A stretch of DNA of 64,000 nucleotides from Pseudothermotoga thermarum DSM 5069 (GTDB lineage: Bacteria; Thermotogota; Thermotogae; Thermotogales; DSM-5069), in the NCBI RefSeq assembly GCF_000217815.1, contig NC_015707.1, forward strand, positions 930,001-994,000, written 5' to 3'. The notes under the pieces are model-generated. The model was given only the letters and a program-made list of their open reading frames with translations. It made no database searches and was not told the origin of the DNA. Both the position numbers and the translations under genes were made by a program. Of this stretch, positions 17,224 to 41,597 are shown one piece after another (positions within the stretch are counted from its first letter, which is position 1; every line of letters starts with the position of its first letter).

Positions 17224-18108
17224 ATGAAGACACTTAAAGAGTTTTTTGAGAAAGCCAGCAAATCCTCTTATCGTAGGGCTGTTGTAGCTGGAGCAGAGGA
17301 TGCAGAAGCTGTTAAAGCTGCATTTGAGGCAGTTAAAATGGGGATTTTAGATGATGTAACTTTGGTTGGTAACAAGGAGATAGTGTCTTGTGAAGATAAA
17401 AACTTTTCCATTATCCACGCCTCAACGGAAGCTGAATGCGCTGAAACAAGTGTGAAACTCATATCATCGGGAAAAGCCGACATACTCATCAAAGGACTTG
17501 TGAAAACATCGACGCTTTTAAAGGCTGTTTTGAACAAAGAGTGGGGATTAAGAGGGTCAGGTTTGCTCAGCCACATAGCTGCTGTTGAGGTTCCGTATTT
17601 ACCCAAGGTTGTCTTCATCACCGACGGAGGAATAGTTATTCGCCCAACGCTTGAGCAAAAAATCACCATAATAAAGAACGCAGTGAAGTTTCTACACAGC
17701 ATAGGTTATGAATCACCGAAAGTTGCAATTGTATGCGCGGTAGAAACAGTTAATCCAGATATGCCCGAAACCGTTGAAGCGGCTGTTTTGGCTAAAATGG
17801 GGCAAAGGGGAGAATTTGGTCGCTGCTTGGTTGACGGTCCATTGGGACTTGACAACGCTTTGAATCTCAACGCTGCCAAAGTTAAGGGTGTCAAAAGCGA
17901 TGTGGCTGGAGATGCAGATTTGTTGGTTGTTCCAGATATACATGCAGGTAATCTGTTGGGTAAGTCAGCTGTTTACTTCGCGGGTGGAAAAATTGCCGGA
18001 ATAGTGATTGGTGCAAAAGCTCCGGTGGTGCTTGTTTCTAGAGCTGACACTTTTGAATCAAAGCTTTTTTCCATAGCCATGGCGGTATCCTATAATCAGG
18101 AGATGTGA
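17224..18108 (+). CDS. Phosphate butyryl/acetyltransferase-like enzyme (Ptb family)
   Basis: 294 residues, the Ptb/Pta fold (PTA_PTB). Members exchange CoA and phosphate on short acyl groups. Characteristic segments: KADILIKGLVKTSTLLKAVL, GLLSHIAAVEVP, FITDGGIVIRPT and the carboxy-terminal AKAPVVLVSRADT. No butyrate kinase is adjacent, so the acyl chain is uncertain. AGGAGG precedes the ATG at 17224; the ORF can be extended to 17185 only by non-homologous residues overlapping ribF. The degenerate NtrC-like gene follows within 4 bases and may regulate or be regulated with it. Confidence 0.88.
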   Translation: MKTLKEFFEKASKSSYRRAVVAGAEDAEAVKAAFEAVKMGILDDVTLVGNKEIVSCEDKNFSIIHASTEAECAETSVKLISSGKADILIKGLVKTSTLLKAVLNKEWGLRGSGLLSHIAAVEVPYLPKVVFITDGGIVIRPTLEQKITIIKNAVKFLHSIGYESPKVAIVCAVETVNPDMPETVEAAVLAKMGQRGEFGRCLVDGPLGLDNALNLNAAKVKGVKSDVAGDADLLVVPDIHAGNLLGKSAVYFAGGKIAGIVIGAKAPVVLVSRADTFESKLFSIAMAVSYNQEM

Positions 18109-18112
18109 GTGA

Positions 18113-19051
18113 ATGATAAGAGTTCTTTTGCCATGGCAGTTGTCTTCTTTAACTCTCCCAACGACGTTGGAAAAAATTCACGTTGAATTTTATGTTGATC
18201 AAAAAGAGTATGAAAGAAAACTTATGGAAGATTTTTGGGACATAATTTATGGTCCTTTTGACGAAAGGCAGCGATCCGCCGTTTTTGTAAGCAATGTTGA
18301 ATCGTTTTTGATTGCTATAAAATATGTCGAGATCCGAAGCAAATTTGATGAATGCAAGAGGACTAGCGATATACTTGATAAGCATATAGAGCTTCAAGGA
18401 GTAAAGATCGTTGAAACGTTGAAGACCTTAAAAAAGCTTCAAATTCAAAAACCGGATTGTTTTGTGATAGTGGCGGAGAACGGCATCCAAGTAGAAGCCT
18501 ATGTAGATTATTTTTCCAATTCGTGCTATCAACAAGTCGCCGAAAAGCTCTACAAGGTGATTTTAGATGGTAAGAAGGTCGATATAATCACATCTTCGTC
18601 GCCTATTGAAAATTTAATCAACGTTTCTATTCCTCCGTTACGGGAGAGAAAAGAGGATATTCCATACATGGTGGATAAGGCTCTTTCTTGGATTCATCAA
18701 AAGCACAAGAACATAACTGTGGTTTTTCCAGATCAACATGTGATGAGGCTACTTACAAGTTACAACTGGCCCGGCAACACGGAAGAACTTGTTCGTGTAA
18801 TCTACAGATACGCCTCGGGTGAAGACATAATATCTTGTTTAAAAGACTCCATTACAGTCGATGATATAAAATCCATGAGTATGCGAGAGTACGTAAGTGA
18901 AATAGTGGCGCAAGTCGAAAAACAGTTGATTCAAGATGCTCTTCAAAAAACTTCTTGGAATCGAAAGAAAGCCGCAGCCATGCTTGGATTAAACTATAAA
19001 ACACTTTCTTACAAGATAAAAAAGTATGGAATCAAAAGGACAAAGCCTTGA
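18113..19051 (+). CDS. Degenerate NtrC-like regulator with Fis-type helix-turn-helix
   Basis: 312 residues. The carboxy half is recognisable as a sigma-54 enhancer-binding protein: VSIPPLRERKEDIP, then NWPGNTEELVRVIYRYA, and a Fis helix-turn-helix ending in WNRKKAAAMLGLNYKTLSYK. The Walker A motif, the Walker B DEIGE and the GAFTGA sigma-54 loop are absent. The amino-terminal 150 residues are not recognised. ATP-driven activation of sigma-54 is therefore impossible; it is more likely a simple DNA-binding regulator derived from such a protein. It begins 4 bases after the Ptb gene. Confidence 0.82.
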   Translation: MIRVLLPWQLSSLTLPTTLEKIHVEFYVDQKEYERKLMEDFWDIIYGPFDERQRSAVFVSNVESFLIAIKYVEIRSKFDECKRTSDILDKHIELQGVKIVETLKTLKKLQIQKPDCFVIVAENGIQVEAYVDYFSNSCYQQVAEKLYKVILDGKKVDIITSSSPIENLINVSIPPLRERKEDIPYMVDKALSWIHQKHKNITVVFPDQHVMRLLTSYNWPGNTEELVRVIYRYASGEDIISCLKDSITVDDIKSMSMREYVSEIVAQVEKQLIQDALQKTSWNRKKAAAMLGLNYKTLSYKIKKYGIKRTKP

Positions 19052-19068: not shown

Positions 19069-19653
19069 ATGAAAGTCCAAAAAACTTATTTGAATAAACT
19101 TTACGAAAAAGCCGAACAAGTTATGGATTTGTACAAAAAATTTGATAAACGAATTGAACTGATTAGACCGAGTTTGCCGGCTTGCCCGTACGGTTGCAGG
19201 GATTGTTGTTTGACAGATGTTGAAAATATAGAGGCAAGCATTTTGGAATTTTTCCCATTGGTTATAAAGTGGCATAAAGAGAACGTTTTAGTTCAAAAAT
19301 ACGAAGAATATAAAGCAGCAACTGAAAGTTCTTTATGTGTCTTTTTACAACCTGACCATACGTTGCTTCCACAGGGTGGTTGCACGATCTACGAGTTTCG
19401 TCCGTTGGTTTGTAGATTGTTTGGATCAAGTGCCTTATTGAAAAAAAGACAATTAGATTATCTAGCGTGCAAAAAGTTGAAATCACAAAGCTTTGACACA
19501 GCTATGTTGCCGATTGCTAACGATTTTAACGATAAATTGATAACTATAGATCCTTACCTTGCCGTTAAAAAGTACCCGATAAATGAGGCTTTGAAAAAAG
19601 CTTTGGAGTATGTCTTAAGCTACGATTATTTCTTCAGAGCAACTGCTTCGTGA
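19069..19653 (+). CDS. YkgJ-type cysteine-cluster protein
   Basis: 194 residues. Cysteines cluster as CPYGCRDCCLTD (residues about 39-50) and later CTIYEFRPLVCRLFG and ACKKL, the pattern of the YkgJ (CxxxCxxCC) family, which is thought to bind zinc or an iron-sulfur cluster. Function unknown. The ATG at 19069 has no obvious strong ribosome site, and the gene follows the NtrC-like gene by 17 bases, so coupling is likely. Confidence 0.85.
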   Translation: MKVQKTYLNKLYEKAEQVMDLYKKFDKRIELIRPSLPACPYGCRDCCLTDVENIEASILEFFPLVIKWHKENVLVQKYEEYKAATESSLCVFLQPDHTLLPQGGCTIYEFRPLVCRLFGSSALLKKRQLDYLACKKLKSQSFDTAMLPIANDFNDKLITIDPYLAVKKYPINEALKKALEYVLSYDYFFRATAS

Positions 19654-19683: not shown

Positions 19684-20247
19684 ATGGTGCTATTCAAAGA
19701 AGCAGGAGAACATAATACCGAAGAAACCTTGAAATTAGCCATAGAAGAGGCAAGGAAATTTGGTAAAAAGCTTTTGATTGCCTCAACAACGGGAAAGAGT
19801 GCCAAGAAAGCTTTGGAAATGATTCCAGACGACTTTCAGCTAATTGTCGTAACGCATCATACAGGGTTCAAGCAGGTGGATGAACAAGAGTTCCCCGAAG
19901 AAGTAAGAAATTTGCTTTTACAAAAAGGCCACAAAGTCTTGACGGCCACGCACGTTTTATCTGGTATTGAAAGAGCCTTTAGAAGAGAATATCAAGGTAT
20001 TCATCTGGCTGAGATTGTGGCAAATACATTGAGGTTGTTCTCGCAAGGTATGAAAGTTTGTGTGGAAATTGCTCTGATGGCCGCAGATGCTGGTTTGGTG
20101 AAATGCTCTGAATGGATTGTAACGTGTGGAGGCACTTCAAGAGGACTTGATACATGCGTTGTTCTAAAACCAGCAAATACATCAAGAATGCTTGAACTCA
20201 GGATAGGTAAGATTATCTGCATGCCTTCTGATTGTCCAAACATTTGA
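19684..20247 (+). CDS. Pyruvate kinase carboxy-terminal-domain-like protein
   Basis: 187 residues resembling the stand-alone 'pyruvate kinase alpha/beta domain' family: an amino-terminal helix-strand unit (EETLKLAIEEARKFGKKLLI, ASTTGKSAKKAL), a HHTGF segment, and a carboxy-terminal CGGTSRGLDTCVVLKPA. No catalytic TIM barrel is present. In pyruvate kinase this domain binds effectors, so a ligand-binding or phosphate-sensing role is an inference only. GGGGGTGGAAGG precedes the ATG. Confidence 0.82.
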   Translation: MVLFKEAGEHNTEETLKLAIEEARKFGKKLLIASTTGKSAKKALEMIPDDFQLIVVTHHTGFKQVDEQEFPEEVRNLLLQKGHKVLTATHVLSGIERAFRREYQGIHLAEIVANTLRLFSQGMKVCVEIALMAADAGLVKCSEWIVTCGGTSRGLDTCVVLKPANTSRMLELRIGKIICMPSDCPNI

Positions 20248-22329: not shown

Positions 22330-23400
22330 TCATTCCTCCTTCATGTAAATTTTTTCAACGTGTGGACATGTCATGGCTCTTAAAAGAGCTGCATAAGATA
22401 AACGAAAAGAAATAAAATCGCCAAGTTTCAAATCAATTTTGCATTCGGTTATATCCACCAAAGTGTGATCACTTGAGGCGTGTATGACCTGCGCACCGTC
22501 CAGGAGAGGGATGAGTTGCTTTGGTACGGTGTCCTGTTCGCCTAAAGCAAGTATTGCCCTTTTTCTTGGACCTTTGTCAATGAACTGAGGTTTGCGACCA
22601 AAGGCGTCAAAACCTATTTCTCCTTCAGGCACAGATGGCTTGGTTTTTATCTCTATGATTTCAGCTTTCAAAATGAAGGTGTCTTGGTTCAACCATTTGA
22701 TCACTCTATCATTTGTCACATCGGTACCAAGGAATATTGCCTCTCCAATCCTCAGTTGATTTATTTGGGGTGGTAATTTTCCTTCCTCAACCAATCTCAG
22801 AGTCGCGGTTGCACCACCTGAAACTATCTGAACGTCAAGCCCTTTTTCGGTCAGTTTCTCTTTAACCGAAATTAGTTTTGCCAAAGTTTCTGGTGTTGGA
22901 ATTACCCCTCCATAACATCCAAGGTTTGTTCCGATACCAACGATTCTTGCCTTTTTACATAGCTTAAAACTTGCAAAGATTTCTTCAACGGCTTCTTTGT
23001 ACCAAACACCTTCGCGTAGATCCCCTACGTCGACCATGTAAATTAACTTTGGGCTTTTTGAAAGCTGTTGTGCAAGTTCTTCGATCCATTCAACAGTTTG
23101 TGGTTCAGAAACAAGGATATAGTCGCAATACTGAACCACTTTTTCCAACTCGCTTTTTGGTGGCACTCGAATCATCATGAATGGACCTTCTATTCCATTT
23201 TTCAAAAGTCTCTCGATGTTTTGTATTCTCGATTCCGCTATGATTTTTATTCCAGCTTGCCTTAAAATTTCTGCCAACGTTGGATCTCCGAGGCTAACTT
23301 TTGTAACTCCTACAACTTCTATTCCAAAGCTTTTACACAGCGATAGTACTTTTTCGGCGTTTTCACGTACCTTGGGTAAGTGTATTTCAAGGAAAGGCAC
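22330..23400 (-). CDS. PLP-dependent amino-acid racemase (ornithine/lysine racemase type)
   Basis: 356 residues, alanine-racemase amino-terminal barrel fold. The PLP lysine is in EVVGVTKVSLGD (about residue 34). Later segments (VDVGDLREG, GIGTNLGCYGG, LRIGEAIFLGTD) match the ornithine-racemase-like group rather than biosynthetic Alr, which usually has a longer beta domain. Thermotoga proteins of this group have been linked to lysine/ornithine racemisation; the exact substrate here is inferred. GTG start with AGGAGG upstream. It is directly adjacent to uxaC. Confidence 0.85.
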   Translation of the reverse strand: MPFLEIHLPKVRENAEKVLSLCKSFGIEVVGVTKVSLGDPTLAEILRQAGIKIIAESRIQNIERLLKNGIEGPFMMIRVPPKSELEKVVQYCDYILVSEPQTVEWIEELAQQLSKSPKLIYMVDVGDLREGVWYKEAVEEIFASFKLCKKARIVGIGTNLGCYGGVIPTPETLAKLISVKEKLTEKGLDVQIVSGGATATLRLVEEGKLPPQINQLRIGEAIFLGTDVTNDRVIKWLNQDTFILKAEIIEIKTKPSVPEGEIGFDAFGRKPQFIDKGPRKRAILALGEQDTVPKQLIPLLDGAQVIHASSDHTLVDITECKIDLKLGDFISFRLSYAALLRAMTCPHVEKIYMKEE

Positions 23401-30141: not shown

Positions 30142-30166
30142 TTATATAATTATGTTGAAAGTTAAT

Positions 30167-30328
30167 ATTCGAGCGCCAGAGGGTACCCGCAAGGGTTTAA
30201 AGGGGAAGCCGGTGAAAATCCGGCGCGGGTCCGCCACCGTAACCGGGGACGAAATCCACGTGATGCCACTGGCTTTTAAGCCGGGAAGGCGTGGAGAGTA
30301 GGATGATCCGGGAGCCGGGAGACCTGCC
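30167..30328 (+). ncRNA. Cobalamin riboswitch
   Basis: Recognisable by conserved pieces: GCCGGTGAAAATCCGGC hairpin, then CCGCCACCGTAA, a GGGAAGGCG segment and the B12 box AGCCGGGAGACCTGCC (30313-30328). The downstream expression platform is a terminator at 30341-30379 that would form when cobalamin binds. A TATAAT at 30145-30150 is the likely -10. It precedes btuFCD, so it lowers B12 uptake when B12 is abundant. Confidence 0.95.
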
Positions 30329-30330
30329 CC

Positions 30331-30379
30331 TGGTCAATTGACCATCCTCTTCGAGACCAAGAGGATGGTGAAATTTTTT
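30331..30379 (+). terminator. Riboswitch-controlled terminator
   Basis: ACCATCCTCTT (30341-30351), loop CGAGACC, AAGAGGATGGT (30359-30369), then GAAATTTTTT. The palindrome TGGTCAATTGACCA (30331-30344) overlaps the 5' arm and can form an alternative hairpin, giving the switch. Confidence 0.9.
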
Positions 30380-39812: not shown

Positions 39813-41597
39813 TTATGCAGCAAATTGGATGGCTTGGCCAGCAACAATGTACCAAGTCACAAACAGTGCATTTGTAAAGGCTCCAACGTATATACTACCA
39901 GTTCTTCGATAGAAGAAAGCAGATATTGCTCCTGCTACAGCTGTTAGGAAGACAAATTGGTATGCAACAATACCAAGAAGAGATTCCGTTGGGAAGAACA
40001 AAGTCTGAGTTGTGTACAGTTTTCCCACCTGCAGGGCAACCAATATTGCAATACCTAAACAATTTGCGGCTGCTGAGCTAACCATCCAAAGAGCAGTTGT
40101 AGATACTTCGGATCTTAAGATCTTTGCTTTCAACTGTCCATTTAGCACCAACGCATTTACAAATGTAAACAACGCAAATGGTGGCAAGAATTTTATAAAG
40201 ATCCAGAACCTTGCAAAATCCATCGGCTTAAGTGCAATAACCCACCATCTGAAATCCACTTTGAGTGCCCATTGAACGATCGACAAAACTATGTGTGTAG
40301 CAAAAACTGTGCAAACGGCAAGTGCAAAGGCTTTCCACAATTGCTTAAGGCTGAAAGACTTTTTCTCAGTGCTTGTTGAAAGACCATAACTGATCATGTT
40401 TGCTCCCATTCTACGATGGTAGGCAAAGTGCCAAACTATGAACAAGCCAACGGCAATCAAAGCGTTGAGCGTTGCCCACTTAGCGAATCCAACTGTTAGA
40501 CTTTGGGGCCAGAATGCACTTGCTTTGACGTTCTTTTGGAATCTAAAGAATATCAAAGCTGGTATTCCAGTAACCAGCGCAAATCCTATCCACCAAACAA
40601 TTGTTGCAATAGCTTTGTTCTTGGGCTCTAAAACAAATGCTTTTCCGTGAAGAGATTTAAAGTAATTTGTATCAAGCAAAGCTGCACCATAACTTATAAG
40701 AAACATAATACCACCAATCAAACCGAGTAATGTTCCAAATTCTTTCCATGGCCATATTTGGTTTTTGGGATCAATGAACTTAGGTGGTTTTATAGAATCT
40801 TGCAGAAATTCTATCGCATATCCTATGGCCTCCGTTGACAAATGGTCTCCGGGATGTGTGCAGTTTGGAATGTACAACTTTCTTGCTGTCTCGTTCTCAA
40901 AGGAGCCATAAAGTTTACCAGGTACCACATCCTCTGTCGTTCCAAATGCAGTCTTCAACTTTGCAGTTTTGACTATGTCAGATGGTATATCCACGCCCCA
41001 CATCAGTTTGCTAAACTCATCATATTTGCTGAAAATCACAGCAAAGTTAAACCCAGAATCAATAGTTACTTTTGGTGCGCCAAATGTTTCAGACGATGAA
41101 CCCATAAGAATAACTGTCTTTACCAAATCTGGGTGTCTGCCTGCAGCCGTTAATACCGACCAACCACCCATTGAGTGGCCTTCCACTGCTATGTTTTGCT
41201 TATCCACAAATGGTAGACTTGCTAAATACAAAAGGCCATCTTCTGCGCCACGGGTGGGGTTGGCTATTCCACCCTTGATTTGTTCTGAATAACCATGTCC
41301 AGCCATATCCATCGCAAGAACTACATATCCACGGCGTGCAAATTCAATGTTGAATCCACTTTGAGTCTCTCGAGAATTAATATAACCGTGCATTGTCAAA
41401 ACAGCTGGAGCAGGTTTTTCAGCAGATACACCCTTGGGCAAGAACAAATACGCCGACAGAACCTTACCATCTGAACTGATGAACCTAACCTCTTTGACCT
41501 GTACTTTTCCAAAATCTGTTTGGACTAAGAAAGCGATCAATGAACCAATGAAAACAACTACCACAGAGAAGAGAACCCACGCTACTGACTTTTTCAC
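39813..41597 (-). CDS. Membrane-anchored alpha/beta hydrolase, first gene of the glpK operon
   Basis: About 594 residues. One amino-terminal membrane segment (WVLFSVVVVFIGSLIAFLV), then an alpha/beta-hydrolase domain (residues about 40-270): MHGYINSRE, nucleophile VEGHSMGGWS and a CTHPGDHLS histidine. The carboxy half (about 290-594) has 8-9 membrane segments. The hydrolase domain is probably outside the membrane. A longer reading exists from 41693, but it would translate the leader; GTG at 41597 has GGGGGG-type pairing. Position before glpK suggests it releases glycerol from a lipid or ester. That is an inference. Confidence 0.8.
   Translation of the reverse strand: MKKSVAWVLFSVVVVFIGSLIAFLVQTDFGKVQVKEVRFISSDGKVLSAYLFLPKGVSAEKPAPAVLTMHGYINSRETQSGFNIEFARRGYVVLAMDMAGHGYSEQIKGGIANPTRGAEDGLLYLASLPFVDKQNIAVEGHSMGGWSVLTAAGRHPDLVKTVILMGSSSETFGAPKVTIDSGFNFAVIFSKYDEFSKLMWGVDIPSDIVKTAKLKTAFGTTEDVVPGKLYGSFENETARKLYIPNCTHPGDHLSTEAIGYAIEFLQDSIKPPKFIDPKNQIWPWKEFGTLLGLIGGIMFLISYGAALLDTNYFKSLHGKAFVLEPKNKAIATIVWWIGFALVTGIPALIFFRFQKNVKASAFWPQSLTVGFAKWATLNALIAVGLFIVWHFAYHRRMGANMISYGLSTSTEKKSFSLKQLWKAFALAVCTVFATHIVLSIVQWALKVDFRWWVIALKPMDFARFWIFIKFLPPFALFTFVNALVLNGQLKAKILRSEVSTTALWMVSSAAANCLGIAILVALQVGKLYTTQTLFFPTESLLGIVAYQFVFLTAVAGAISAFFYRRTGSIYVGAFTNALFVTWYIVAGQAIQFAA

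Follow-up and report, generated by a model that had tools for sequence, protein, structure and literature searches.

A motorless NtrC-derived regulator beside a phosphotransbutyrylase-type gene in Pseudothermotoga thermarum and other Thermotogota

The regulator and its locus

We analysed a 64,000-nucleotide stretch of the Pseudothermotoga thermarum DSM 5069 genome (the window), in which a motorless NtrC-derived regulator of 312 aa is encoded at positions 18113 to 19051 on the forward strand. The gene is defined by its open reading frame and by orthologues in 42 Thermotogota genomes. Its frame is uninterrupted and begins with ATG, 4 nt beyond the stop codon of a gene at 17224 to 18108 on the same strand, suggesting that the two are probably co-transcribed. 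This upstream gene encodes a phosphate acyltransferase (PF01515, 156.7 bits), ptb paralogue 1 (ptb1), and by its adjacency is the conserved partner of the regulator. It is a homologue of phosphotransbutyrylase, with a match of 332.7 bits to NCBIfam PRK07742 that falls under the equivalog cut-off of 409. The original prediction had placed the regulator right behind a phosphotransbutyrylase gene, and to that degree of similarity its position is as described. Downstream, also on the forward strand, are genes for a CxxCxxCC zinc/iron-chelating-like protein (19069-19653) and for a PK_C protein, a pyruvate kinase C-terminal domain that stands alone (19684-20247). Near the ptb/regulator pair, the reverse strand encodes an ornithine racemase-like protein (22330-23400), whose 394 bits fall short of the 480 required for Orr. 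The window also holds a cobalamin riboswitch (30164-30345, forward strand, 118.7 bits).

Only two Pfam families matched the regulator above cut-off. The AAA+ lid (AAA_lid_14, PF25601; 41.9 bits, cut-off 27), with PPLRERKEDIP and WPGNTEEL, covers residues 177-254 (18641-18874, forward strand), and the Fis-type helix-turn-helix (HTH_8, PF02954; 60 bits, cut-off 22) covers residues 265-305 (18905-19027, forward strand). The NYKT..YK core of the helix-turn-helix (HTH) was invariant across 18 orthologues. NCBIfam activator models aligned to the protein from about residue 167 on only. PPLRERKEDIP, PGNTEEL and the Fis HTH had all been read from the sequence in the original prediction, and all are present. 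The absence of Walker A, Walker B and the GAFTGA loop was also noted there; none of the three is readable in this protein, while all can be read in the genome's intact activator.

Origin and decay of the AAA+ motor

The first 150 residues had been described as new. This proved incorrect: bridging relatives, profiles and folds identify them as a shrunken receiver-like domain followed by a collapsed AAA+ core. For profile comparisons of the N-terminal parts, the lid and HTH were removed first and shuffled columns served as score controls. The N-terminal profile of the short Thermotogales members matched that of longer members of 378-425 aa (E 2e-15, score 103 vs shuffled maximum 17), and the AAA+ part of the long members matched intact NtrC-type regulators from Thermotogota (E 8e-10, score 62 vs shuffled maximum 20). 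Compared directly with the intact regulators, the Thermotogales profile gave no significant match (E 0.1); the intermediates alone form the bridge, which explains why the region looked like new sequence. By sequence profile the receiver part was not significant (15.4 vs shuffled maximum 14.4). AlphaFold2 modelled the 312-aa regulator with a pLDDT of 89.7 and the long form with 84.5, the latter with an AAA+ core after five strand-helix repeats. The top Foldseek matches were NtrX, NtrC1 and NtrC4. Both models aligned to NtrX and NtrC1 over their full length, and the long-form model matched bEBP AAA+ domains with TM 0.66-0.70. Structure prediction, suggested earlier as a check on the N-terminal region, thus returned a full-length NtrC1/NtrX-like fold. 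Collectively, the bridging longer relatives and the predicted folds rule out a novel N-terminal domain.

In the P. thermarum protein, residues 1-61 (18113-18295, forward strand) are predicted to form a shrunken receiver-like fold (b1, b2, a2, b3, b4), as judged from the AlphaFold2 model, Foldseek matches to NtrX and NtrC1, and the alignment. The phospho-acceptor Asp is not conserved in this alignment. A receiver origin of these first ~61 residues is probable and rests on the predicted fold. A long linker helix, assigned by DSSP of the model, would occupy residues 62-90 (18296-18382, forward strand). Residues 91-172 (18383-18628, forward strand) are, as judged from sequence profiles through the longer relatives and from the fold, homologous to the NtrC-type AAA+ alpha/beta core; profile comparisons and the alignment show its GAFTGA loop and Walker B strand to be deleted. 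Within this core, AENGIQVE at residues 121-128 (18473-18496, forward strand) stands as a remnant of the Walker A loop, where intact relatives read GESGTGKE, and its E122 and G124 are invariant in 18 orthologues.

The loss of the motor can be followed through the family. The Walker A motif GxxGxGK was absent from all 16 aligned members, the closest sequence being GETGIDK in genome G051, and the GAFTGA loop was deleted in every one. Walker B (hhhhDE) is deleted in the P. thermarum protein and survives as FIDD, FFDN or FLEN in longer relatives. Orthologues from families f4, f5, f7 and f8 have the long form (378-425 aa). Those of f7 carry GETGIDK at the P-loop and FFDN in the Walker B strand, and those of f5 carry SEKGCRRE and FLEN. 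In Thermotoga orthologues just FIDD remains of the Walker B strand, which is deleted in Pseudothermotoga and Thermosipho. Domain length in the alignment decreases along the phylum. The series therefore runs from proteins with a near-complete AAA+ fold but no P-loop or GAFTGA, through loss of Walker B, to a stub. Forty columns are invariant among the aligned orthologues, and ELQG, E122-x-G124 and Y130 are invariant in the remnant.

The motorless family is present in 42 of 103 Thermotogota genomes. In a tree built on the lid and HTH, the motorless proteins form a single clade (27 rows, support 100/100), separate from the PAS activators and from intact receiver-type regulators; its exact sister group is unsure because of long branches. 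Looking for homologues beyond Thermotogota, a scan of genome contigs returned seven Thermotogota loci and short matches in ordinary activators. Across related-species pairs with estimable dS, dN/dS ranged from 0.04-0.18 in the N-terminal half of the protein to 0.01-0.11 in the C-terminal half. The low values in the N-terminal half indicate that the AAA+ remnant is under selection. Protein length is conserved within genera. An association with defence was rejected, since PADLOC matches on the regulator were restricted to the lid/HTH that it shares with RtcR-like proteins.

Sigma-54 and the gene neighbourhood

The original prediction held that Thermotogales lack sigma-54. The check for rpoN contradicts this: the gene is present in P. 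thermarum and in 61 of 103 Thermotogota genomes. P. thermarum, whose genome is one contig of 2,039,943 bp, encodes an RpoN of 333 aa (C1:1058187-1059188; L001:997-1998) with core-binding (46.7 bits) and DNA-binding (85.3 bits) domains and the RpoN box SRRTVNKYR. Sigma-54 was already reported in some Thermotogae (PMC3162934) and in Kosmotoga olearia (PMC5674127). Thermotogales RpoN proteins are short, with open frames of ~297-335 aa compared to ~355-460 aa in most other Thermotogota families; they carry RpoN box, CBD and DBD, but no N-terminal activator-interacting domain was recognised by Pfam. A single intact activator, of PAS-PAS-AAA+-Fis architecture, is also encoded in the P. thermarum genome and carries GESGTGKE, GAFTGA and FFDEIG. 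The motorless regulator is kept without rpoN in six genera (g7, g8, g12, g13, g18 and g19), indicating that it does not need sigma-54. Loss of sigma-54 as the cause of motor loss was rejected, as rpoN is present here and the motorless family is found both where the genome has it and where it does not. Of the proposal that a sigma-54 activator was re-used as an ordinary regulator, the re-use of an activator relative stands, with no ATP site in any homologue read, but the premise of an absent sigma-54 falls. The whole window contained a single -24/-12-like match, against 1.4 expected by chance; it lies at 40299, and none lay near ptb.

A comparable loss is seen in the PAS-PAS activator (loci L002, L107, L139-L141, L145-L154, L166 and L167), which belongs to a different clade from the motorless regulators. 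Of the genomes read, those with rpoN from f1, g5, g9 and f11 retain GAFTGA or GSFTGA. In the Thermosipho group (g7, g8) the motif is altered in all six genomes read, all without rpoN, to DAFMGT, GTFIGT, GAFLGA or GAFFGA, or by deletion in two. In f10 the loop is deleted in nine of nine genomes read, eight without rpoN and one with it; Walker B there is mostly FLEN or FIEN, and FIDN in the rpoN-bearing genome. Together with the motorless regulator, these losses mean that at least two activators of the phylum separately lost contact with sigma-54.

Conservation of the ptb neighbourhood, also raised as a check, extends far beyond the genus. The regulator adjoins the same ptb paralogue and/or arcC (carbamate kinase) in 33 of 42 genomes. 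Thermotogota have two ptb paralogues, and the neighbour is ptb1 both here and in all other adjacent cases; wherever the regulator and ptb1 lie on one contig, they are neighbours (28/28 genomes). The two are directly adjacent at 7-25 nt in Pseudothermotoga and at ~110 nt in two Thermosipho-group genomes, and other pairs are separated by arcC or by arcC plus one further gene. Another five genomes have arcC immediately upstream of the regulator. The remaining nine comprise eight (g12, g13) that lack ptb1, arcC and rpoN yet keep the regulator, and one in which the regulator lies on a 4.1-kb contig. The opposite pattern is found in g10, g11 and g14, of the same family as g12 and g13, where arcC (6/6) and ptb1 (5/6) are present and the regulator is absent. 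As read from their sequences, the operons of both Pseudothermotoga and Thermosipho further include a gene for a D-aminopeptidase, and those of f8 genes for methylmalonyl-CoA epimerase and for subunits of the decarboxylase. The ptb link of the regulator is thus old, and the company of ptb and arcC suggests that its original target was the fermentation of acyl-CoA and amino acids. In Thermotoga g13 (L108, G035), which lacks ptb1, arcC and rpoN, the regulator lies beside prfB and is the sole NtrC-type match in the genome. In the Pseudothermotoga genus g4 (L186-L189), a gene for a GAF/GGDEF-type protein, read as resembling a diguanylate cyclase, lies ahead of dppA-ptb1-regulator. An operator search upstream of the regulator in five Thermotoga-group genomes found none, only a conserved promoter-like stretch.

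Proposed mechanism and known systems

We propose, with a probability of roughly 70%, that this former NtrC-type response regulator now acts, together with the housekeeping sigma factor and independently of phosphorylation and ATP, as a DNA-binding regulator of acyl-CoA and amino-acid fermentation genes. Its ancestor would have had the order receiver, AAA+, Fis HTH. The receiver would no longer be phosphorylatable, and the AAA+ motor would have shrunk to a small folded remnant that has lost P-loop, Walker B and the loop contacting sigma-54. The linker helix is predicted to form, together with the lid and the Fis HTH, a constitutive or ligand-controlled dimer; this would bind DNA and control transcription by ordinary, sigma-A type polymerase with no need for ATP hydrolysis or sigma-54. 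Lacking P-loop, Walker B and GAFTGA, the regulator cannot remodel the sigma-54 polymerase. We infer the dimer, its DNA targets, the direction of regulation and the signal. The ancestral target would be the regulator's own operon, with ptb1, often arcC, and genes for D-aminopeptidase in Pseudothermotoga and Thermosipho or for methylmalonyl-CoA decarboxylase in f8, a set that would gain ATP by fermenting acyl-CoA and amino acids. Since g12 and g13 keep the regulator without ptb1 and arcC, it cannot be solely a local ptb regulator, and in g13, where it is the sole NtrC-type match, its present target must lie elsewhere.

As a tentative refinement, which we consider rather unlikely, the collapsed AAA+ fold could be a small-molecule sensor that switches DNA binding. 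Candidate ligands are acyl-phosphate, acyl-CoA and carbamoyl-phosphate, which the adjoining enzymes make or use. The invariant ELQG, E122-x-G124 and Y130 where the P-loop was, the purifying selection on the N-terminal half and the constant company of ptb1 and arcC, whose enzymes handle such metabolites, are consistent with this. However, the conserved residues may serve the fold only, and g12 and g13 lack both genes. That an AAA+ motor has turned, through visible intermediates, into an ATP-free metabolite-sensing domain, with ptb/arcC metabolites directly controlling DNA binding, is likewise a doubtful extension. It is improbable that the regulator, instead of acting on DNA itself, is a dominant-negative modulator that uses its lid to enter hetero-oligomers with the genome's intact sigma-54 activator, blocking or tuning its hexamer. 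Lids do take part in the packing of AAA+ proteins, and P. thermarum has both an intact PAS-PAS-AAA+-Fis activator and rpoN. In Thermotoga g13, however, the genome has neither another NtrC-type match nor rpoN, suggesting that such a partner is dispensable, and the Fis HTH is among the most conserved parts of the protein. A decaying pseudogene with its frame still open would fit the missing motifs and the shrinking domain but is contradicted by purifying selection on both halves (dN/dS well below 1), and its presence in 42 genomes, conserved length within genera and 40 invariant columns make that reading barely credible.

Transcription that depends on an ATP-driven machine has its textbook example in the sigma-54 activators. 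The Thermotogota show such a machine being taken apart without loss of the regulator, whether or not the genome has sigma-54, and thereby offer a natural test of which enhancer-binding protein parts are needed once sigma-54 is out. For an uncharacterised regulator of Thermotoga and its relatives, the proposed mechanism offers a likely role tied to energy-yielding fermentation genes.

The regulator shares domain order, AAA+ lid, Fis HTH and overall fold with the NtrC-type enhancer-binding proteins NtrC1, NtrX and ZraR. Unlike them, it lacks P-loop, Walker B and GAFTGA as well as the phospho-acceptor Asp, and it is kept in genomes without sigma-54. RegA/ActR/PrrA-type regulators combine a phosphorylatable receiver with a Fis HTH and have neither AAA+ domain nor lid. 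They too have an NtrC-like HTH without a motor, but with a live receiver and no lid; the regulator described here combines a dead receiver with a retained lid. Enhancer-binding protein relatives reported to act with the housekeeping sigma factor, independently of sigma-54, include VpsR, TyrR, DhaR, HupR and R. capsulatus NtrC; VpsR, TyrR, DhaR, HupR and Rhodobacter/Caulobacter NtrC have no proper GAFTGA (PMC3162934, PMC10274813). This group likewise represents re-use without sigma-54, but its members retain a full-sized AAA+ core, most of which is gone from the regulator. We found no described sigma-54-independent NtrC relative whose motor core has collapsed this far. In Bacillus, BkdR governs the ptb-bcd-buk-bkd operon as a SigL (sigma-54)-dependent activator (PMC2743287). 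The link to BkdR drawn in the original prediction is one of analogy, between NtrC-family proteins beside a ptb gene; BkdR has an intact AAA+ motor and depends on SigL, whereas the regulator has shed its motor.
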